Shown piece by piece: positions 8,465 to 51,107 of a stretch of DNA of 64,000 bases. How positions within the stretch are numbered: the stretch's first letter is position 1; each line of letters opens with the position of its first letter. Position numbers and translations under genes: made by a program. Below the pieces are notes generated by a model. That model made no database searches. It saw only the letters and a list, made by a program, of their open reading frames with translations, and was not told where the DNA came from. Source of the DNA: Microtetraspora sp. NBRC 13810 (GTDB taxonomy: Bacteria > Actinomycetota > Actinomycetes > Streptosporangiales > Streptosporangiaceae); NCBI RefSeq assembly GCF_030268685.1, contig NZ_BSRQ01000004.1, positions 124,001-188,000 of the forward strand, read 5' to 3'.

Positions 8465-9820
8465 ATGACCACCGCCCCCGCCACCGTCGGCGAGTCCCCC
8501 GCCGCCCGCCTCCGCGAGCAACGCGGCTGGTACTGGTACGACTGGGCCAACTCCGCCTTCCCCACCACCGTCCTGACGGTCTTCCTCGGCCCGTACCTGA
8601 CCGACGTCGCCGAGACCGCCGCGGCCGGCCGGGAGTTCGTCGACGTGCTCGGCTTCGACGTGCGGCCCAGCGCCTACTACTCCTTCGTCGTCGGCGCCGC
8701 CGCCATCCTGCAGATCATCCTGATGCCGGTGGCCGGCGCGCTGGCCGACCACACCGGCCGCAAGCGGGAGCTGCTCGGCGTCTTCGCCTTCCTAGGGGCC
8801 GCGGCGACGGTCTGCTTCTGGTTCGTCACCGGTGGCGCGTATCTGCTCGGCGGGGCGCTGTTCCTCGTGGCCAACGTGGGGTTCGCGGCCGCGTTCGTGG
8901 TCTACAACTCGTTCCTGCCCGAGATCTCCACCGCCGCCGAACGCGACCGGGTCTCCGCCCGCGGCTGGGGGTTCGGCTACCTGGGCGGCGGCCTGCTGCT
9001 GGCGATCCACCTCGGGATGTACCTCAACACCGACGCCCTGGGCATCGACGGCGGCACCGCCGCGCGCATCGCGCTGGCCTCGGCGGGCCTGTGGTGGGGC
9101 GGCTTCACGATCATCCCGCTGCTGCGGCTGCGCAACCGCCGCAGGGCCATCGCCGCCGAGAACGCGGGCCAGGCGGTCTCCCGCAGCTTCCGCGAGCTCG
9201 CCCGCACGGCCGCCGACCTGCGCCGCTACCCGCTGACGCTGGCGTTCCTGGTCACCTACCTGATCTACAACGACGGCGTGCAGACCGTGATCTCCTTCTC
9301 GGCCACCTACGCCGACCGGGAGCTCGGCCTGAGCGAGACGGTCCGGATCGGGTCGCTGCTGATGGTGCAGTTCGTCGCGTTCGGCGGCGCGCTGCTGCTC
9401 GGGCGGCTCGCCGGGCGGTACGGCGCCAAGCGCGTCGTGCAGTACGCGCTGATCGTGTGGGTCGCCGTGGTCGGCGTGGCGTACTTCCTCCCGGCGGGGT
9501 CGGCGCTGCCGTTCTTCGCCCTGGGCATCGCGATCGCGATCGTGATGGGCGGCACCCAGGCGCTGTCCAGGTCGCTCTTCTCGCACGTGATCCCCAAGGG
9601 CAAGGAGGCGGAGTACTACGCGCTGTACGAGATCAGCGACAAGGGCTCGACGTTCCTCGGGTCCTTCGCCCTCGGCATCGCGCTCCAGCTCACCGACAGC
9701 TACCGGCTGGGCATCCTGTCGCTGCTGATCTTCTTTGCGCTCGGCTTCGTGCTGCTGGGACTCATCAACATGCCCAAGGCGATCCGGGCGGCCGGGAACG
9801 AGGTGCCCGACCGGGTGTGA
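8465..9820 (+). CDS. MFS transporter of the UMF1/Atg22-like family
   Basis: A 451-residue, about 12-helix protein. The N-terminus WYWYDWANSAF is the hallmark of the UMF1 (Atg22-like) branch of the major facilitator superfamily, and the PVAGALADHTGRKR loop is its A-motif. The C-terminal ALYEISDKGSTFLG region is also typical. Yeast Atg22 exports amino acids from vacuoles; bacterial substrates are mostly unknown. It starts at ATG 8465 just after the phosphodiesterase stop and may be cotranscribed with it. Confidence 0.88.
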   Translation: MTTAPATVGESPAARLREQRGWYWYDWANSAFPTTVLTVFLGPYLTDVAETAAAGREFVDVLGFDVRPSAYYSFVVGAAAILQIILMPVAGALADHTGRKRELLGVFAFLGAAATVCFWFVTGGAYLLGGALFLVANVGFAAAFVVYNSFLPEISTAAERDRVSARGWGFGYLGGGLLLAIHLGMYLNTDALGIDGGTAARIALASAGLWWGGFTIIPLLRLRNRRRAIAAENAGQAVSRSFRELARTAADLRRYPLTLAFLVTYLIYNDGVQTVISFSATYADRELGLSETVRIGSLLMVQFVAFGGALLLGRLAGRYGAKRVVQYALIVWVAVVGVAYFLPAGSALPFFALGIAIAIVMGGTQALSRSLFSHVIPKGKEAEYYALYEISDKGSTFLGSFALGIALQLTDSYRLGILSLLIFFALGFVLLGLINMPKAIRAAGNEVPDRV

Positions 9821-10895: not shown

Positions 10896-11097
10896 TCAGC
10901 ACGGTCCGATCAATAGGCTCGCGGCCTTGGTGGACTGGACCCGGAGCTTGCGCAGTTCGCCATGGGCCGCTTCGAGCCGGGCGGTGAGGTCGGCGACCTC
11001 GGCGCGCAGTTGGCGGTTGCGCTCCAGCGAGTCTCCAGCCTGCTCTGCAGCGAGGACCTCGCTTGCGCCCTGGGCACGGGACCTCGAAGTCTTTGGC
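10896..11097 (-). pseudogene. C-terminal coiled-coil remnant of a transposon-associated (DUF6262-like) protein
   Basis: About 66 residues remain, dominated by a helix with heptad character: ERNRQLRAEVADLTARL then EAAHGELRKLR. This resembles the C-terminus of the DUF6262-type proteins encoded after tyrosine recombinases in actinobacterial transposons. Upstream the same frame passes into recombinase-derived sequence without homology. Family assignment is tentative; the coding-like composition and its place beside recombinase remnants are what is seen. Confidence 0.45.
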
Positions 11098-11113
11098 GTG
11101 CGCTGCCGGAGCC

Positions 11114-11377
11114 GGCCCGCTTGCGCTTGCGGCTGGCCGGCGACAGCTCGGCGAGCTCGGCCAGGTAGGCGCGGATCGGCGTCGCGGTCAGCTCGCCGAT
11201 CTCCTCGCCGTGGTGGGCGGCAAAAGCGATCAGGTCGCTGCGGTAGGCGCGCCGGGTGTGCGGTGAGGTGCCGGCGTTGGCCAGGTCGGTGAGGAAGTCG
11301 TCGAGATGGCGGGCGAGCGGGTGGGCACGGCCGAGCTGCTCGGCGATGATCGGATCGATGCGGTACGCCTCCACCAC
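11114..11377 (-). pseudogene. Tyrosine recombinase, N-terminal (SAM-like) domain remnant
   Basis: From GTG 11377, about 88 residues match the core-binding domain of tyrosine recombinases: LARHLDDFLTDLANAGTSPH, TRRAYRSDLIAFAAHHG and a following IRAYLAELAELSPASRKRKR helix. Homology ends abruptly at the RKRKR stretch; the catalytic domain is absent here and the sequence jumps to the coiled-coil remnant. A catalytic half of the same recombinase type lies on the same strand at 19425-19739. The gene start sits next to the repeat array at 11386-11490, as recombinase genes often sit beside their own sites. Confidence 0.75.
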
Positions 11378-11385
11378 CCGCCGAG

Positions 11386-11490
11386 TTGCCAGATAACCGG
11401 GATACGAAGCGTGCGCGCCGGACGGTGGTCGCCCAGCTCGCGCTACGTCGCTGATCGCTGTCTTGCCAGATAACGAATGTTATCCCGCAA
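11386..11490. repeat. Recombination-site-like repeat array (inverted core plus direct repeat)
   Basis: TTGCCAGATAAC occurs at 11386-11397 and again at 11463-11474. The second copy faces GTTATCCCGCAA (11479-11490), its imperfect inverse (10 of 12), across 4 bases; counted differently this is an 11-6-11 dif-like site with ATAA and TTAT arm ends. An inverted core with an extra direct-repeat arm resembles the internal resolution site of TnpI-type Tn3 transposons. Tyrosine recombinase and Tn3 remnants flank it. Confidence 0.55.
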
Positions 11491-11520: not shown

Positions 11521-11610
11521 CCCCAGCCACGAGTAGTGATGGGGGCGTAGCTCGCCGACGGCGGTCGACAGGTAGCGGCTGTTCCACAGCGCGACGGACT
11601 GGATCAGGCG
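11521..11610 (-). pseudogene. Tn3-type transposase, short C-terminal remnant
   Basis: Reading the complement of 11610-11521 gives LIQSVALWNSRYLSTAVGEL and RPHHYSW. This matches the conserved region near the end of Tn3-family transposases, where VVLWNTRYL-type motifs are found. About 30 residues remain. It overlaps the last bases of the TetR gene at 11604 and abuts the repeat array. Too short to say which Tn3 subgroup it came from. Confidence 0.5.
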
Positions 11611-12173
11611 AGCAACCGGTCGACCAACCCGTCGAGGTAGTCAGGGGTGAGCGGGCCCGCGCCGAACAGGACGCGCATGTAGATCGGCGCCAGGAGATGG
11701 TCCAGCACCTCCAGTACGTCAGGCGGGTCCTCGCCGCGGCCGCGGGCGCGGTCGAGCATGGCCTGCAACTGCCTGGTGCGGTCGGCCAGGAGCTCGTCGC
11801 GCGCCTGAAGGCCCTGCCGGCCCTCGCATGACAGCGCGATGGTCAGCCGCACCAGCGCCAGGCCGTCGGGTCCGGTGACCTCGCGGGCCACGTTGGCGGC
11901 GTGGGTCCGCAGGTCGCCGGCCAGGCTGCCGGTGTCAGGCATCGGTGACTGCGCGTTGAGCCGGGTCAGCAGCACATCGCTGAGCAGGGCTTGGAGGTTG
12001 CCCCACCGGCGGTAGAGGCTGGTGTCGGCCACGCCCGCGCGGGCCGCGATGTCGCCGACGGTGAAGTTCCCGTAGCCGCGCTCCCTGACCAGGTCGGTAA
12101 CGGCCTGGTGCACGGCCGCGCGGACCCGGGCGCTGCGCCCCCCGGGCCGCCTGGCCCGCCCCTGCTCATCCAT
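11604..12173 (-). CDS. TetR-family repressor of the adjacent DHA2 pump
   Basis: A 189-residue protein with an N-terminal TetR helix-turn-helix (RVRAAVHQAVTDLVRERGYG, then FTVGDIAARAGVADTSLYRR with the W-G-N recognition end) and a ligand-binding C-terminal domain. It is divergent from the MFS gene with an 89-base gap that contains inverted TAACGCA sites. Its own -10 box (TAAGGT, complement of 12180-12185) ends 6 bases before the ATG, so the transcript is probably leaderless and autoregulated, because the operator overlaps that box. Confidence 0.88.
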   Translation of the reverse strand: MDEQGRARRPGGRSARVRAAVHQAVTDLVRERGYGNFTVGDIAARAGVADTSLYRRWGNLQALLSDVLLTRLNAQSPMPDTGSLAGDLRTHAANVAREVTGPDGLALVRLTIALSCEGRQGLQARDELLADRTRQLQAMLDRARGRGEDPPDVLEVLDHLLAPIYMRVLFGAGPLTPDYLDGLVDRLLA

Positions 12174-12236: not shown

Positions 12237-12262
12237 ATCAACTGCCTTTAGGAGAGATGTGC

Positions 12263-13696
12263 GTGAAAGCGTTGCTCACCCTGACCTGCGCAGGTCAGTT
12301 CATGGTGCTGCTCGACAACACGATCGTCGGCGCCGCCCTGCCCGACATGCAGCAGCGGCTCCACACCGGGCTGACCGGCCTGCAGTGGATCGTCGACGCC
12401 TACGTGCTGCTGGTAGCCATGCTGCTGCTGTCGGGCGGCGTCTTCGCCGACCGGTTCGGCCGCAGGCGGGTGTTCCTGGCCGGGGTGGTGGTGTTCACGG
12501 CCGCGTCGGTGGTGTGTGCGCTCGCGCCCTCGATCGGCTGGCTGATCGCCGGGCGGGTACTGCAGGGCGTCGGGGCCGCGGCACTGAGCCCCGCCTCACT
12601 AGCGCTGCTCGCCGCCGCGTATCCCGCCCCGCGAGAGCGCGTCAGAGCGATCGGGTTGTGGGCCGGGTTCAGCGGCATCGGCCTGGCCGCCGGACCGCTG
12701 GCGGGCGGGATCCTGGTGGAGTCCTTCGGCTGGCCCGCCATCTTCCTGGTCAACGTGCCCATCGGGGCGGTCCTGCTGTTGGCCGGGCTGCGCGTGCTGG
12801 GAGAGTCCCACAACCCGAGCGCACCGCCGATCGACGTCCCCGGCACGGTCCTGTCCGCCGCGGGCGTGGGCGCTGTGACCTACGGCCTGATCGAGGGCGG
12901 TTCCCGAGGCTGGACCTCGCCGGTGATCCTGGGCAGTTTCGCCGCCGGACTGGTGCTCCTGGCCGCGTTCGTCGTGGTCGAGGCTCGGGTGCCGACGCCG
13001 ATGCTGCCACTGCGGCTGTTCCGTCAGCGGCTGTTCACGGTGTCCAACACGGCGATGGTCGTGGTCGGGTTCGCGCTGATGGGGTCGTCGTTCTTCTTCT
13101 CCCAGTTCTTCGTCTACGTCCAGGGCACTTCGATCCTGGTGGCCGGCCTGCAGACCTTGCCCGTCTCGCTGGCCATGGTGATCGTCAGCCCGTACGCGGG
13201 CCGGTTCGCGGCCAGGTACGGCTTCCGTGTCGTCGTCAGCATCGGCCTGGCGCTCGCCGGGCTGGGGCTGCTGGCGCTGGGCTTCGTCCACGCCGATACC
13301 GGCTACGGGAACGTGTGGTGGCGGCTGGCGGTCGTCGGCATCGGGTTCGCTCTCACCATGTCGCCGCTGACCGGGGCCGCAATCCAGGCGGTCAGCCCGC
13401 AGGAGGGCGGCCTCGCCTCGGGCGTCAGCAGCACCACCCGGCAGATCGGCGCGGTGCTCGGCGTGGCGGTGCTCGGGGCGATCGTCCACACGCGGGAGTC
13501 CGGCGGCGCCTCCTTCGAATCCGGCCTCAACAGCGCCTTCCTTGCGGCGGGTGCCGTGACGCTGGCCTGCGCCGTACTCACCGGCCTGTGGCTGACCGCG
13601 GCCCGGACGCCGAGGGACGTCCGGGCCGAACGGTCAGGAGGCCAAGCGGTCAGTGAGCCGCCGCTGACGGCTTCTCCCAGTCGGCCGACGTCTTGA
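12263..13696 (+). CDS. DHA2-family (EmrB/QacA-like) MFS drug transporter
   Basis: About 477 residues and 14 predicted helices. Motif D1-like LDNTIVGAALPDMQ, the A-motif LSGGVFADRFGRRR and motif C AAGPLAGGILVESFGW are all present, as in drug/H+ antiporters of the DHA2 family. GGAG (12251-12254) is 8 bases before GTG 12263, a better start than ATG 12257, which is only 2 bases from it. The last 20 or so residues (after ARTPRDVRAE) are read through the remains of an SDR gene on the other strand, so the original C-terminus was probably replaced. Controlled by the divergent TetR. Confidence 0.88.
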   Translation: MKALLTLTCAGQFMVLLDNTIVGAALPDMQQRLHTGLTGLQWIVDAYVLLVAMLLLSGGVFADRFGRRRVFLAGVVVFTAASVVCALAPSIGWLIAGRVLQGVGAAALSPASLALLAAAYPAPRERVRAIGLWAGFSGIGLAAGPLAGGILVESFGWPAIFLVNVPIGAVLLLAGLRVLGESHNPSAPPIDVPGTVLSAAGVGAVTYGLIEGGSRGWTSPVILGSFAAGLVLLAAFVVVEARVPTPMLPLRLFRQRLFTVSNTAMVVVGFALMGSSFFFSQFFVYVQGTSILVAGLQTLPVSLAMVIVSPYAGRFAARYGFRVVVSIGLALAGLGLLALGFVHADTGYGNVWWRLAVVGIGFALTMSPLTGAAIQAVSPQEGGLASGVSSTTRQIGAVLGVAVLGAIVHTRESGGASFESGLNSAFLAAGAVTLACAVLTGLWLTAARTPRDVRAERSGGQAVSEPPLTASPSRPTS

Positions 13697-13775: not shown

Positions 13776-14690
13776 TTATGGGGCGAAGAGGACTAGGGAC
13801 TCGAGGTCGAGTCGGGTGGTGGGGTTGGCGACCGGCGGGGTCAGGTTGAGGATCCAGTTGCCGAACCGGCGGATGACGTGGGTGATGTAGGGCGAGACGG
13901 TGGCCAGGTCATCGAGGTCGACGGGGTGGCCGTCGGCGGCGCTGGCGTTGGCCGCGTCCGTGATGTCCCGAGCGGTCGAGTAAATGACGCAGTTGGCCGG
14001 CAACTCGTCGAACGTGATGATCTTCTCGTGGTAGTCGGGATCGTTGTGGCCGATGAGCTTGCCGCCGAACATCAGCCAGTCGGCGAAGTTGTGGAAGGAC
14101 TCGTTTCGGTCGGTGACCTGGGTGATCTGCTCGCAAAGGTCTCCGACAAACACCGCAAGAGCGTGATCGTCCTGACCGCGCCGCACCCCGGTCCGCGCCG
14201 TGTGCAGCAGGCTCACGATCAATGTGATGCCCTTGTCCTCATCCAGCACCTTCCGTAGGTCCGCGACATCGGTGACCCTCGCCTCTCCGGCGAAATGCGC
14301 GATCTTCCCCGGCGGGATCCCCTCCAGCCACGCCTCGGTCGGCCCGGGGGCGTCCAGTCCCCGCAGGAACGCCAGACGGCCCTTGAACTTGTTGAGCGAC
14401 ACCGCCTGCGCCGCGTCCTTCAACCCGTCGTACGCGCTGCGCCGGGTGATGGGGTCGACCAGCAGCAGCCGGGCCAGCCTCGCCTGGGCTCCGGAGTCGA
14501 CCCGGCTGGACAGCAGCGTGAAGAATCCGCGGTTCACCTCGGTGCGGATTTTCTTGGTCATCTCATCCAGCGTCGTGTAGCCGGGCAACTCACACTCGGC
14601 GCGAACCAGCTCCTCCAGCGCCACATTGATCAAGTCAGCGGGGTTGTCCTTGGCCTGGGCCGCCTTGCGGATCGCAACCGCGGCGGGGCT
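13776..14690 (-). pseudogene. Tn3-family transposase, N-truncated and lacking the catalytic core
   Basis: About 300 codons stay open. The first two thirds match the middle of Tn3 transposases (NPADLINVALEELVRAECEL, LPGYTTLDEMTKKIRTEVN, WLEGIPPGKIAHFAGEARV). After about LAVFVGDLCEQI the sequence jumps to the extreme C-terminal region (RNESFHNFADWLMFGG, ANCVIYSTARDI, VSPYITHVIRRFGNW), so the DDE catalytic segment is gone. The N-terminus is cut at about 14690, where M28 peptidase sequence begins on the other strand. Cannot be functional. Confidence 0.75.
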
Positions 14691-14703: not shown

Positions 14704-16494
14704 CAGGTCGACAACATCGTGGCCGGGCTGCGGGGAACGGACTCGACCGGCACCGTGCTCATCGCCGCGCACCACGACTCCGCGGCCATGGGACCGGGCG
14801 CCTCCGACGACGGCGCGGCGGTGGCCGCGATGATCGAGACCGTCCGGGCGCTGCGCGCCGGTCCCGGCCCGCGGAACGACATCGTGCTGCTCATGTCGGA
14901 CGGTGAAGAGGACGGCGTGCTCGGCGCCGAGGCCTTCGCTCGCGAACATCCCGTGGGCAAGGCCGGAGGCGTGCTGCTGAACTGGGAGGCCCGCGGGGTC
15001 AGCGGCCCCTCGCTGATGTTCCAGACCTCCGCGAACAACGCCCGCCTGGTCGAGACCTTCGTCAACGCCGTCCCCGCTCCGCGAGGGCACTCCGCCATGG
15101 CCGAGCTGTATCGGCTGCTGCCCAACAACACCGACTTCACCCCGCTGACCAGGGCCGGCTTCAGCGGCATGAACTTCGCCTACATCCAGCGCTCCTCGCT
15201 CTACCACACCGCGAACGACTCCATCGCCAACCTCAACCCGGGCAGCCTGCAACACCACGGCACCAACATGCTGGCGCTGACCCGTGCCCTCGGCGACGCG
15301 GACCTGCGGATGCCGGCCCCCGACCACGACGCCACCTACTTCCGCGCGCTCGGCACCATGATCACGTATCCGAACCAGCTCGTCTGGCCGCTGGCGTTGC
15401 TGGCCGTCGTCGCGGTAGCCGGCCTGGCGGTGCTGGCCCGCGTCAGGCGCCTGCTGAGCCTGCCCCGGCTGATCGCGGCGACGGTCTCGGCGCTGGTGCC
15501 GTTGGTGGTGTCGGCCGCGTTGGCGCAAGGACTGTGGCAACTGCTGGTGGCCTGGCGGCCCGCCTACGACCTGATGGGCGGTCTGCTGCACAGCCCGCGC
15601 CCGTACCAGGCGGCGATCGTGGTCCTGTGCGCGTCGGCGGTTCTCGGCTGGTATCTGCTTCTGCGGCGCGGGCTCGGTCCGGCGGCGCTGGCGGTCGGGG
15701 CGCTGACCTGGTTCGCCGGGCTGGGCTCGCTGTGCGCCCAGGCCGCTCCCGGGGCGTCTTTCCTCTTCGCCCTGCCGGCGCTCGTGGGCGCGCTCGGCTG
15801 GCTGGCCGCACTCCTGCTCCGTACGCCGGCCTGGGCGCGGACGGTCGTGGCGATGCCGGGTCCGGTCACGGCCGCGATGCTGCTGCCGTCCCTGGCCGGG
15901 GACGCCTTTGACGGGATGGGGCTGGCGCTCGGCGGGGTGAGCGCGCTGGTACTGGCACTGTTCGGGCTGATCGTCGTGCCGATCGCGGAACTGCTCCTGC
16001 CCGATCTCGCCACCCGGCCGAGACGTGCCGCCGTCCTCGCAGCACCCTTGACGGCCCTTCTCCTCGCGGCGGTGCTGGTCGCCACCGGGCTCGTGGTGGA
16101 CGACTTCGACGCCGACCGACCGCAGCGCAGACACCTGGCGTACGTCATGGACGCCGACACCCGCACCGCCCACTGGGTCAGCGCCGACGCGGCCCCGCCC
16201 CCGTGGACCAGGCAGTACGTGTCCGGCCATGACACCTCCACGCTGCCCGCCGGGTACGCACGGGGCACGCTGTGGACCGGTCGCGCACCGGCGATCGCCG
16301 CCGGCGGCCCGCGAGTCGCCGTCCTGGCTCCCAGCGGGGACACCGTCAAACTGCAAGTGGCCGTCGAAAAGGGCACGCCCCGACCTCCTCACCTGGTCAG
16401 CGCCACCAGGGAGGACGGCGACCTCATCGCGGTCACCCCCGGATACACCCTGACCGGCCACTCCCGGACCCCGGCACGCCTGCCGTCCGGCTGA
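14704..16494 (+). pseudogene. M28-family membrane zinc peptidase, 5'-truncated
   Basis: The frame is open from a TTG at 14626, but M28 homology begins at about 14704 (VDNIVAGLRGTDSTG). It keeps zinc-site motifs AAHHDSAAMGPGASDDGAAV, LLMSDGEEDGVLGAEAF and the late histidine region LYHTANDSIANL, followed by about nine transmembrane helices, the layout of large membrane-bound M28 aminopeptidases. The N-terminal transmembrane helix and about the first 100 residues are missing, replaced by antisense transposase. The C-terminus may also be clipped by the next Tn3 fragment. Without its membrane lead-in it is probably not expressed properly. Confidence 0.65.
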
Positions 16495-16499
16495 GGCAA

Positions 16500-16996
16500 G
16501 CCGCGATCGCTTCTGGGCGCGAACGTGCCGAGGTGGCAGGAGTGGCCGCCCGGCCCTGTCGCGACCGGAGCTGGAGCGGTTCTTCTTCCTGGATGACGAG
16601 GACCGCAAGCTGATCGCGAAGCGGCGCGGGGACCACAGTCGGCTCGGGTTCGCTCTCCAGATGTGCACGGTGCGCTACATCGGCCGGTTCCTCCCGGACG
16701 ACCCGCCAGACGTGCCGTGGGTCGTGATCGAGCACCTGGCCGGCGCAGCTCGGCATCGCGGGCGGCGCGCGCTCTGGACGACCCGCTACATCGACGCCGC
16801 CGTCGCCCAGCTCCAGGCCGAGGGCCACGAGATCCGCGAGGAGGACATCGCCCGGCTTTCCCCGCTCAAGCACCGCAATGTGAACCTGCTCGGCCACTAC
16901 AGCTTCACCGCCAGCGTCCCGGCCGCCGGCGCCCTACGCCCGCTGCGCGACCCGGACGCGCCTGGGCTGGACGAGGACGACGAAGCCGGGGAGTGA
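16500..16996 (+). pseudogene. Tn3-family transposase with internal deletion (N-terminus joined to C-terminus)
   Basis: The frame holds the DUF4158-type N-terminus (LSRPELERFFFLDDEDRKLI, KRRGDHSRLGFALQ, FLPDDPPDVPWVVIEHLAG), then jumps within a few residues to the C-terminal end (RALWTTRYIDAAVAQLQAEG, DIARLSPLKHRNVNLLGHYS). About 800 residues including the catalytic DDE core are missing. The C-terminal sequence differs clearly from that of the 13776-14690 relic, so this is a different Tn3 subgroup. Both relics have their N-termini toward the M28 gene. Confidence 0.75.
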
Positions 16997-19409: not shown

Positions 19410-19424
19410 TGTCATTGGCTATGC

Positions 19425-19739
19425 GAGTGTCATGATGAGCTGCAGCGGGACTTCGGCTTCGCCGAGGTGGGTGGCGGCGCTGTGGCGCAGCTGGTGCAGG
19501 TCGAGCCCGGCGTACTTCTCCAGCAGGACGCGGGCGCGGTCGTAGCCGAGGCGGGCGCGGCCGGTGTGCGGGCAGATGTCGGCGGCCGCCGGACGGCGGG
19601 CGGGGACCGGGCGGCGTTCGGACAGGAACAGCGGGCCCTGCGTGCGTGTGCTGCCGTCCGGGAGGAGGAAGGCGTCGGCGGCCGCGGCGAGGCTGACGCC
19701 TCCACCGCGCAGGGCGGTGACCTTCGCCACGGCGCTCAT
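19425..19739 (-). pseudogene. Tyrosine recombinase, C-terminal catalytic remnant
   Basis: Read from 19739: VSLAAAADAFLLPDGS, GPLFLSERRPVPARRPAAAD, ICPHTGRARLGYDRARVLLE and the catalytic box LHQLRHSAATHLGE with its His and Arg. After EVPLQLIM the family sequence, which should carry the second His and the nucleophilic Tyr, is lost. It is the complementary half of the recombinase type whose N-terminal domain remains at 11114-11377, on the same strand but in reversed order. Not functional. Confidence 0.75.
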
Positions 19740-49108: not shown

Positions 49109-50356
49109 TCAGCCTGATCGTCCGGTGCGCCCGCCGGCCTCCTCCCGCTCCGGGACGGGGATCGTGGCGTACACCCGGAACCCCTCCCCCGGCCGCGGGC
49201 CGGCGTGCAGCACCCCGCCGCACAACGCCACCCGCTCGGCCATGCCGCTCAGCCCGAAGCCGCCCCCGGCTTCGGGCTCCGGGCGTGCCGTCCCGTCGTC
49301 CAGCACCTCCACCTCGACCGTTCCCGGCAGGTAGGCCACCCGTACCCCGGCCCTGGCGCCCGGGGCGTGCCTGCGGATGTTGGTCAGCGCCTCCTGAACG
49401 ACCCGGTAGACGGCGTGGTCGACGGCCGCAGGAAGCGGCACGGCGGTGCCCGTGACCTCCAGGGCGACCGGCGCCCCGGCCGCCGCCGCCCGCTCGACCA
49501 GCGCGCCGAGCTGCGCCGCGCCGGCGCCCCGGCCGTCCAGGGCTCCGGCGGGACCCGTGCCGTCCGCATCACCGACCTCGCCGACCTTGTCGGCCTTGTC
49601 GGCCTTGTCGGCCTCGTCGGCCCGCAGCACCCGCAACAGCTGGCGCATTTCGGCCATGGCCGCCCGCCCGGTCCGCTCGGCGGTCAGGAACGCCTCCTCC
49701 GCGCCCGCCGGGTCGGACGCCATCGTCGTACGGCCGGCACCCACCAGGACGTTGATCACGGTGATGTGGTGGGCCACGACGTCGTGCAGCTCCCGGGCGA
49801 TCCTGCGCCGCTCGGCGCGCACGGCGTCCTGCGCCGCCTGCCGCGCCCTGCGCTCCCTGAGCCGCCACCGCAGCCGGAACAGCCGGCCGACCACGACGGC
49901 GGCCACGACCTGGCAGGCGACGCCGATCTGGTTGCCGTGGCCGAGCGCCAGCGCGGCGGCGAAGTAGGCGGCGACGGCCGCGCCGCCCATGGACCACGCG
50001 GCGCGCCGCGACCCGTACCGGCCGAGCCCGTAGAGCGCGACGGTGGCGGGCAGGCCCGCCAGCAGCGGCGGCGGCACGTTCGCGGAGAGGAACAGCGGCA
50101 GCGCCGCCAGGTCGGCGGCGACGGTCGCCGCGGTCACGGGAACCGGCCTGGCGCGCCACCCGGACAGCGTCAGCGCGGCGGCGACCCACAGCGCGACCAC
50201 GGCTGTCAGCGCCGGCCCCGACACTGCGCCGAGCAGCGGCACCACGGCGCCGCAGGCCGCGACGACCAGCACCGCGTCCACCACCCGCGGACGCGTGACC
50301 GCTCTCCCCCCGACACGGATCACGGCCCGGAACCCCATGCCCCGACCGTACGACAT
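49109..50356 (-). CDS. NarL-type (HisKA_3) sensor histidine kinase, orphan
   Basis: A 415-residue kinase with about five N-terminal helices and no large extracellular domain, the HisKA_3 box RRIARELHDVVAHHITVINV with the phospho-acceptor His, a linker, and the ATPase domain with VVQEALTNIRRHAPGARAGV and GGGFGLSGMAERVALCGGV. The linker contains ADEADKADKADKVGEVG, made by a 9-bp DNA repeat (49572-49620). ATG 50356 follows GGGGA; the upstream in-frame residues are Gly-rich and unlikely. No response regulator is next to it, so it is an orphan or its partner is elsewhere. Confidence 0.85.
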   Translation of the reverse strand: MSYGRGMGFRAVIRVGGRAVTRPRVVDAVLVVAACGAVVPLLGAVSGPALTAVVALWVAAALTLSGWRARPVPVTAATVAADLAALPLFLSANVPPPLLAGLPATVALYGLGRYGSRRAAWSMGGAAVAAYFAAALALGHGNQIGVACQVVAAVVVGRLFRLRWRLRERRARQAAQDAVRAERRRIARELHDVVAHHITVINVLVGAGRTTMASDPAGAEEAFLTAERTGRAAMAEMRQLLRVLRADEADKADKADKVGEVGDADGTGPAGALDGRGAGAAQLGALVERAAAAGAPVALEVTGTAVPLPAAVDHAVYRVVQEALTNIRRHAPGARAGVRVAYLPGTVEVEVLDDGTARPEPEAGGGFGLSGMAERVALCGGVLHAGPRPGEGFRVYATIPVPEREEAGGRTGRSG

Positions 50357-50528
50357 TCCCCGCCCACCCGGCGTCCCCCACCCGCCCTGGAACCCCCGCC
50401 CGCCCTGGCCCCCGAACGCCCGGAATCCCCGCGCGCCCGGCGTCCCCTGGGCGATCGGCGCCCCCGACCGACGCCCCCACGCGCCCGACGTCGCTGAGGG
50501 TGGTCGGCTCGCCTGAGGCGGGGGTGGG

Positions 50529-51107
50529 TCAGTCGTTCTGTTCCTCGTGGGCCAGGGTGTGCAGGGCATGGAGGATCTGCTCGCCGGTAGGCAGGGAGCC
50601 GGGGTCCAGGAGTGACTGGAACGCCAGGCCGACGATCAGCGCGTGCACCACGGAGCCCAGGCCGCGAGCCGTACCGGCGTCGACGTCCGCGGCGGCGGCG
50701 CCCAGGACCATGGCGGCCAACTGGACGCGCCCCTCCTCGGCCGCCTCGGTGAGCGGCACCCGGATGTCGTCGGCGAACTGCGCCTGGGCGTAGGCCTGCG
50801 CGCTCGCCACGATGAGCTCGCGCTGCCGGGGCAGGGCGGCCACCAGCTCGTCCAGGCCGATCCGCAGCCGCTGCGACGGGCCGGCGTCGCCTGCGGCGCG
50901 CACCACCGCCTCGATCATGTCGCCCCACTCCGCCTGGGCTTCCAGGGCGGCTATGTTCATCAGGGCGTCCTTGGACCCGAAGTGGTAGCCGATCGACGCC
51001 AGATGCGCCCCGGAGGCCGCGGCGATGTCCCGCGCGGTGGTCCGGTGGTACCCCTTCTCGATCAGGCACTTCTTGGCCCCGGCCAGCAGGTCCTCGCGTT
51101 GGCTCAT
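50529..51107 (-). CDS. TetR-family repressor (GTACGTAC operator)
   Basis: A 192-residue TetR protein: REDLLAGAKKCLIEKGYHRT and TARDIAAASGAHLASIGYHF form the helix-turn-helix, and the C-terminal domain resembles TetR_C families that bind lipophilic drugs. TAGGGT (complement of 51115-51120) ends 7 bases before the ATG, so it is probably leaderless. It is divergent from a DHA2 pump, with GTACGTACGT repeats between. Confidence 0.9.
   Translation of the reverse strand: MSQREDLLAGAKKCLIEKGYHRTTARDIAAASGAHLASIGYHFGSKDALMNIAALEAQAEWGDMIEAVVRAAGDAGPSQRLRIGLDELVAALPRQRELIVASAQAYAQAQFADDIRVPLTEAAEEGRVQLAAMVLGAAAADVDAGTARGLGSVVHALIVGLAFQSLLDPGSLPTGEQILHALHTLAHEEQND

Follow-up and report, generated by a model that had tools for sequence, protein, structure and literature searches.

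The window, that is, the whole analysed stretch of 64,000 nucleotides from Microtetraspora sp. NBRC 13810, contains at 11386-11490 an array of three short arms, which lies at the start of a truncated tyrosine recombinase gene and is read in the recombinase orientation on the (-) strand. The proximal (right) core arm, TTGCCAGATAAC on the (+) strand and GTTATCTGGCAA on the (-) strand (11463-11474), and the distal (left) core arm, GTTATCCCGCAA on the (+) strand and TTGCGGGATAAC on the (-) strand (11479-11490), face each other across the 4-bp spacer GAAT (11475-11478), the presumed strand-exchange region, and are complementary at 10/12 positions within a 28-bp core (11463-11490). The accessory arm (11386-11397), again TTGCCAGATAAC or, on the (-) strand, GTTATCTGGCAA, is an exact copy of the right core arm in direct orientation, 77 bp away from start to start, with 8 bases between it and the recombinase remnant. 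Thus, the facing 12-bp arms across 4 bases, the third identical arm 77 bases away in direct orientation, and the position of the array at the start of the remnant, as described in the original prediction, were all borne out. Two further conserved blocks lie on the same strand between the arms, namely TTCGTATCCCG (11398-11408; consensus TTCGtTTCCcG), which abuts the accessory arm, and GCGAGCTGGG (11432-11441), at +33 to +42 from the right core arm. The latter is a possible degenerate second accessory arm, with 6/12 matches in the window; the best inner arm match starts at +33 in 9 of the 30 loci of the consensus set described below, with a mean of 6.6/12 versus 5.9 in the reverse-complement control.

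The arm TTGCCAGATAAC has just three matches at no more than 2 mismatches in the 64 kb, with 0.60 expected, and at least three matches occurred in 1 of 100 shuffles. As a bare pattern, defined by an exact 12-bp direct pair within 120 bp and an inverted partner of at least 10/12, the array has a counterpart in 1 of 60 Markov windows and a second case in the window itself, at 49468, which is GC-rich and lies within a 486-aa open reading frame (49109-50569) that we take to encode a histidine kinase. The bare pattern, considered without relatives, could therefore be chance in GC-rich DNA and is weaker than its appearance; the array is significant because homologues carry the same layout.

The recombinase gene itself is a remnant of 276 bases (11102-11377, (-) strand), which covers the N-terminal ~92 residues of a TnpI-like (XerC-like) tyrosine recombinase, recognised by its SAM-like domain (Pfam, E 3.9e-08) and by 81.5% identity to residues 1-92 of the L020 protein, and has lost the catalytic domain. 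It is fused to an unrelated coiled-coil-like coding fragment (about 10896-11108, (-) strand), which marks the deletion junction; this fragment gave a weak CC149 match alone, under the cut-off (E 0.0055), and presumably resembles the C-terminus of Tn554 TnpC-like proteins. A C-terminal tyrosine-recombinase piece at 19419-19739 on the (-) strand was weighed as the missing part of the gene and rejected, having a weak Pfam match and none to the family at E 1e-6. On the other side of the array, the passenger module adjoining the distal arm includes a tetR-family regulator (11604-12173, (-) strand; Pfam TetR_N and TetR_C_11) and an MFS transporter (12257-13696, (+) strand; Pfam MFS_1, E 2.5e-63). 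Joined to the tetR stop codon is a scrap of the C-terminal region of a Tn3 transposase (11545-11607, (-) strand), a weak match of 21 residues, 57% identical to residues 975-995 of the L020 TnpA (E 0.005). The same junction in genome G643 (L120) continues into tnpA, with 47 residues at 83% identity (E 4e-22). Transposase-like scraps of varying length follow the tetR stop in several genomes (L118-L125), tnpA being confirmed by tblastn for L120 only, which suggests one old fusion that decayed differently among genomes. The tetR region next to the array is common to many genomes of the family: a search with the left-flank DNA (tetR, transposase scrap and distal arm) matched 208 of 250 genomes at E <= 0.001, the distal arm being reached, among the matches listed, in the own genome and G070 only.

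Further along, two Tn3 transposase remnants were found, one of the C-terminal DDE part (13857-14132, (-) strand), with no match to the four cassette-linked TnpA lineages defined below, and another with an internal deletion (16559-16945, (+) strand), 44-56% identical to lineage a. The expectation of Tn3 remnants on both sides of the array was not confirmed: these two and the scrap all lie on the higher-coordinate side, and on the lower-coordinate side neither the Tn3 DDE family nor the four transposase queries found a match. No terminal repeats of class 1, 2 or 3 were found in the window at the thresholds used. The window copy is a relic, a decayed resolution site, and cannot work as found, because the catalytic domain of the recombinase is lost and no terminal repeats were found. 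A second decayed copy is present in the same genome on contig C30 (L149, 7824 onward).

Of 150 genomes searched from the family to which the window belongs, 16 contain relatives of the N-terminal recombinase piece, some of these relatives being open frames near 350 residues, and the upstream DNA of several relatives carries identical arms at identical distance. When named genomes were scanned with an alignment built from four long recombinases (A1), 57 loci emerged, mostly in Nonomuraea and other Streptosporangiaceae, further in Nocardia, Kutzneria, Amycolatopsis, Actinocrispum, Actinomadura and Actinoallomurus, and, more distantly, in Chloroflexota and a cyanobacterial MAG. Among the 48 loci examined for arms, the right core arm together with the accessory arm was present in 26 (77 bp apart in 23, 76 bp in 3) and an accessory arm without intact core in 6, while L083 has the core without the accessory arm and L060 a single arm. 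An arm of the window type was absent in the remaining 14, which comprise 9 loci whose match begins at residue 51 or later, so that the 5' part is missing or diverged, 4 distant loci, and L068. At L051 (9986-10010) and L081 (7083-7107), both from Nonomuraea sp. G32, a single base separates the distal arm from the accessory arm, and both the right core arm and the inter-arm DNA have been lost. Catalytic-type residues are conserved in the four intact recombinases.

The strict 28-bp pattern was found in 1 of 396 genomes of the phylum, namely the own genome, an exact search across the phylum being too strict. In the genus of G140, a shorter form of the core at no more than 1 mismatch occurs in 21 of 54 genomes, with none in the reversed-pattern control. 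Of the 25 distinct cores, 22 were examined, and the accessory arm was seen at 17 and a recombinase match likewise at 17; neither was seen at four (L158, L160, L162 and L167), of which three retain array sequence beside the core and look truncated and L160 retains none. The search of actinobacterial genomes for the array revealed intact arrays within Tn3 transposons, where they immediately precede intact tyrosine recombinase genes; the repeat does recur near recombinase and Tn3 genes and was not found to be a part of an ordinary gene regulatory region.

An apparently intact 7.2-kb Tn3 transposon at L020 (8567-15790) carries the recombinase (350 aa), the core, the accessory arm, TetR, a carboxylesterase and TnpA (1058 aa; NCBIfam Tn3 transposase, 835.6 bits) between 38-bp inverted repeats (8567-8604 and 15753-15790), flanked by the target duplication ttgtc on both sides if one extra base is counted into each repeat. 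In total, seven distinct elements have both class-1 repeats and the cassette, with perfect 5-bp duplications in four (L020, L022/L052, L028, L049) and none in L040, L045 and L053. The L028 element is a 1.7-kb version with the array, a recombinase gene with an internal deletion, and further DNA between the core and the far repeat. Decay is frequent among the copies. Among the 22 named loci with a long recombinase match, defined as at least 280 residues in one stretch, eight (L039, L044, L046, L051, L054, L056, L058, L067) lack a match to any of the four TnpA lineages in their locus DNA. The eight passenger open reading frames tested encode such regulators as TetR (twice) and ArsR, and an MFS transporter (twice), a flavodoxin-fold reductase, a glyoxalase and a carboxylesterase. 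L053 also has a 330-bp stretch (12507-12836) with class-1 repeats at both ends and without target duplication, a possible miniature (TIME-like) derivative. At L057 (205-6872), weak class-2 repeats enclose a Tn3 transposase and a further tyrosine recombinase, which has 29% identity to the family and is accompanied by a core-like palindrome (5690); this locus possibly represents a second tyrosine-recombinase Tn3 group.

The consensus of 30 loci chosen for the presence of core and accessory arm is TTnCnnGATAAC-nnnn-GTTATCtGGCAA. The mean consensus frequency is 0.97 in the right core arm, 0.91 in the accessory arm, 0.98 in the inner half (GATAAC) and 0.71 in the outer half of the distal arm, 0.60 in the variable spacer, and 0.43 in the 30 bases outside, values which describe the motif and do not test it, because the loci were selected by it. 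Independent support for the array comes from distant relatives (44-50% identical), in which core and accessory arm have changed together: another arm, TTCCTGTGATAA, stands in the same core and accessory layout on the Rhodococcus plasmid pRZP5 (L097), at two loci of Chloroflexota (L075, L076) and in the cyanobacterial MAG (L079), with accessory spacings of 76, 76, 78 and 65 bp, the last being 11 bp off, a shortening by roughly one turn of the helix. Of the two core arms, the distal one is again the weaker in L075, L076 and L079. The fifth distant locus, Deinococcus L098, showed no such core and a single arm-like match near the gene start.

Taken together, the array is very probably what remains of a site at which a Tn3-family transposon would resolve its cointegrates, by means of a TnpI-like, XerC-like tyrosine recombinase and not a serine resolvase. 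The reading as a TnpI-like resolution site is supported because the relatives keep the array, the recombinase and tnpA, and the distant ones keep the layout, and the suggestion of an actinobacterial Tn3 transposon with a tyrosine recombinase gains from the intact relatives, their inverted repeats, and the 5-bp duplications in four of seven elements. In the intact relatives, the recombinase, as the putative resolvase, would occupy both inverted arms of the core, cleave within the 4-bp spacer and swap strands between the two sites that a cointegrate contains, and its binding to the direct accessory arm ~77 bp off would serve as a topological filter. Binding, cleavage position and control of direction are predictions.

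In the actinobacterial loci, the transposase genes upstream of the core and on the same strand belong to four lineages: lineage a (L020, L037, L040, L045, L049, L052, L053), lineage b (L047), one that resembles a lineage of the own genome (L071, L074), and a third lineage (L041, L042). Their mutual identity is 24-41% where aligned; the query of the third lineage is truncated and aligns with b and the own-genome lineage over ~200 residues and not with a. The cassettes of 12 loci, nine of which are among those just named, have a DNA identity of 80-94%. A core-plus-recombinase cassette of ~1 kb is thus common to four TnpA lineages and two plasmid backbones. At L042, a different, third type of terminal-repeat pair encloses the lineage-3 tnpA, passengers, core and recombinase, with no target duplication recognised at these repeats. 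At L041, L047, L071 and L074, the element boundary was found in part or not at all, and it is therefore less certain that tnpA and cassette belong to one element there. The plasmids are two of Nocardia farcinica, with the recombinase and array in the backbone; no transposase is annotated in the 17-kb stretches read, with no convincing TnpA match, and a role of the cassette in plasmid multimer resolution is likely.

The flanks of the cassette were compared among 41 distinct loci (820 pairs), with a cassette identity of 80% or more over 300 bp in 249 of the pairs. On the distal side, the similarity stops at the arm: a flank is shared within 40 bp of it in 3 of the 249 pairs, two of these over 37-69 bp only, and none of the 16 pairs at least 90% identical in the cassette shares the distal flank. 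The reverse arrangement was also met. The window and L026 are 96.4% identical on the left (964/1000) and 75.7% on the right (345/456), and L071, L087 and L163 are 94-98% identical on the left and 76-85% on the right. At putatively neutral sites, the window and L026 agree at 101/114 positions on the left versus 44/58 on the right (p = 0.045 only), so that this pair alone is weak. The pair L071 and L087 gives a stronger contrast, 199/200 versus 163/192 (p = 6e-9), with a left side that is coding, and the contrast between left and right is confounded by selection on passenger genes. A mirror accessory arm left of the core in L071 and L087 was judged to be chance. The left-hand halves, comprising transposase and passengers, thus appear to have been exchanged by recombination between the cores of different elements, an exchange driven by the recombinase at the core being likely. 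A broader proposal, to be held tentatively, is that the core-plus-recombinase cassette might be a general exchange point of actinobacterial mobile DNA, at which the recombinase would join the cores of different Tn3 elements and also of plasmids, re-sorting transposase lineages and detoxification or efflux passengers, while the looser distal arm would be carried along by each arriving module. Host Xer sites may take part in such exchange, as the distal arm resembles a single arm of the host dif candidate described below (9/11).

The abrupt change of flanks would also be expected if the array were an attachment site, with a circle integrated there by the recombinase and the distal arm as the border to the target DNA, for the sequence beyond this arm differs between loci right up to it. 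However, the ends, where found, are Tn3 repeats, four of seven with 5-bp duplications, and the core is internal to them; the distal flank often holds tnpA and passenger genes; the full core was found at most once per locus in a search of 1.34 Mb of loci, with no second copy; and the recombinase has SAM-like and catalytic domains only in Pfam, which makes such a site highly improbable. Even less probable is a dif-like site for the host XerC/XerD, that is, a Xer-exploiting element, which had been named as the alternative. The core can be read as 11-6-11, its left arm is identical at 9/11 positions to that of the host dif candidate, and the best NCBIfam match of the recombinase is XerC. Nevertheless, the comparison with this candidate did not favour the host site: the right arm agrees at 5/11 positions and the whole core at 16/28, the XerC score of 159.5 bits is far under the equivalog cut-off of 335, the site usually stands beside its own recombinase (at 17 of the 22 cores examined), and the candidate, TTGCTCGATAATGTACATTATGTCAAGT, lies in a different place outside the window (C4:84302-84323, or L150 4303-4324), ~40 kb before it and ~51 kb from the array. 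A tyrosine-recombinase-like gene (L150 6228-7286) is found ~2 kb from the candidate on contig C4.

In attI, a core and direct accessory repeats are followed by an integrase gene reading away. The layout of the array is similar, and passenger genes abut the core, as might be expected of an integron-like platform that captures gene cassettes there. This is the least probable of the readings considered, however, since full cores are not repeated along the passenger DNA, in a comparison that covers repeats of the full core, and the integron integrase model gives 55 bits versus a cut-off of 265. Apart from the core, loose inner-half palindromes alone were seen, for example at L042 13488, L043 16512 and L057 5690, and were judged by eye to be unrelated.

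The TnpI-like resolution site, as the preferred reading, may finally be compared with the systems described. Tn4430, Tn5401 and TnBth4 are of Bacillus origin, and in Tn4430 tnpI precedes tnpA in colinear arrangement. In a 2020 survey, TnpI-type resolution is listed for these 3 of 190 Tn3 elements, with sites composed of an inverted-repeat core and two direct accessory repeats (DR1, DR2), upstream of and adjoining the recombinase gene (PMC7157771). The present elements share with TnpI/irs a Tn3 transposon, a tyrosine recombinase, and an inverted core with a direct accessory repeat upstream of its gene. The claim of exactly the TnpI organisation stands for the inverted core and the direct accessory arm, with one clear accessory arm found here versus two in the TnpI sites described in that survey (PMC7157771). 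Besides, the actinobacterial tnpA lies on the same strand, upstream of the core and with passengers between, whereas in L076, L077 and L079 (Chloroflexota and the cyanobacterial MAG) it is divergent from the recombinase gene; the hosts belong to other phyla, and the cassette occurs with four transposase lineages. The array is TnpI/irs-like by its anatomy, a likeness of layout, and TnpI was not recognised among the plasmid matches. No paper on TnpI with Tn3 in Actinobacteria, or on Tn3 in Nonomuraea, was found among the open-licence papers searched.

For the serine-resolvase TnpR res sites of Tn5501/TnTsp1 and Tn5501.12, the survey describes how transposons swap, at the crossover point, whatever lies to the left of the res site (PMC7157771). 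The swap of the left side at the crossover is alike, but the core here is that of a tyrosine recombinase, and the exchange is read from sequence comparison. TIME-RES is a portable tnpR/res unit suggested to serve transposons and plasmids (PMC4133298); there, the tnpR/res pair is located on a miniature element, whereas the present cassette is common to full transposon lineages. With Xer/dif the array shares the GATAA/TTAT inner arms and a XerC-like recombinase, but it has both core arms of one type, its own recombinase gene and an accessory arm. The TnpS/TnpT rst type has a divergent helper gene, tnpT, and two pairs of inverted repeats; the accessory arm here is a direct repeat. The border of module exchange is visible at nearly single-base resolution, and the naturally varied sites, with two arm sequences and spacings of 65 to 78 bp, offer material for testing the topological filtering by tyrosine recombinases. 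In contrast to the three TnpI elements of the survey, the related layout reaches Streptosporangiaceae, Nocardia, Rhodococcus, Chloroflexota and a cyanobacterial MAG.
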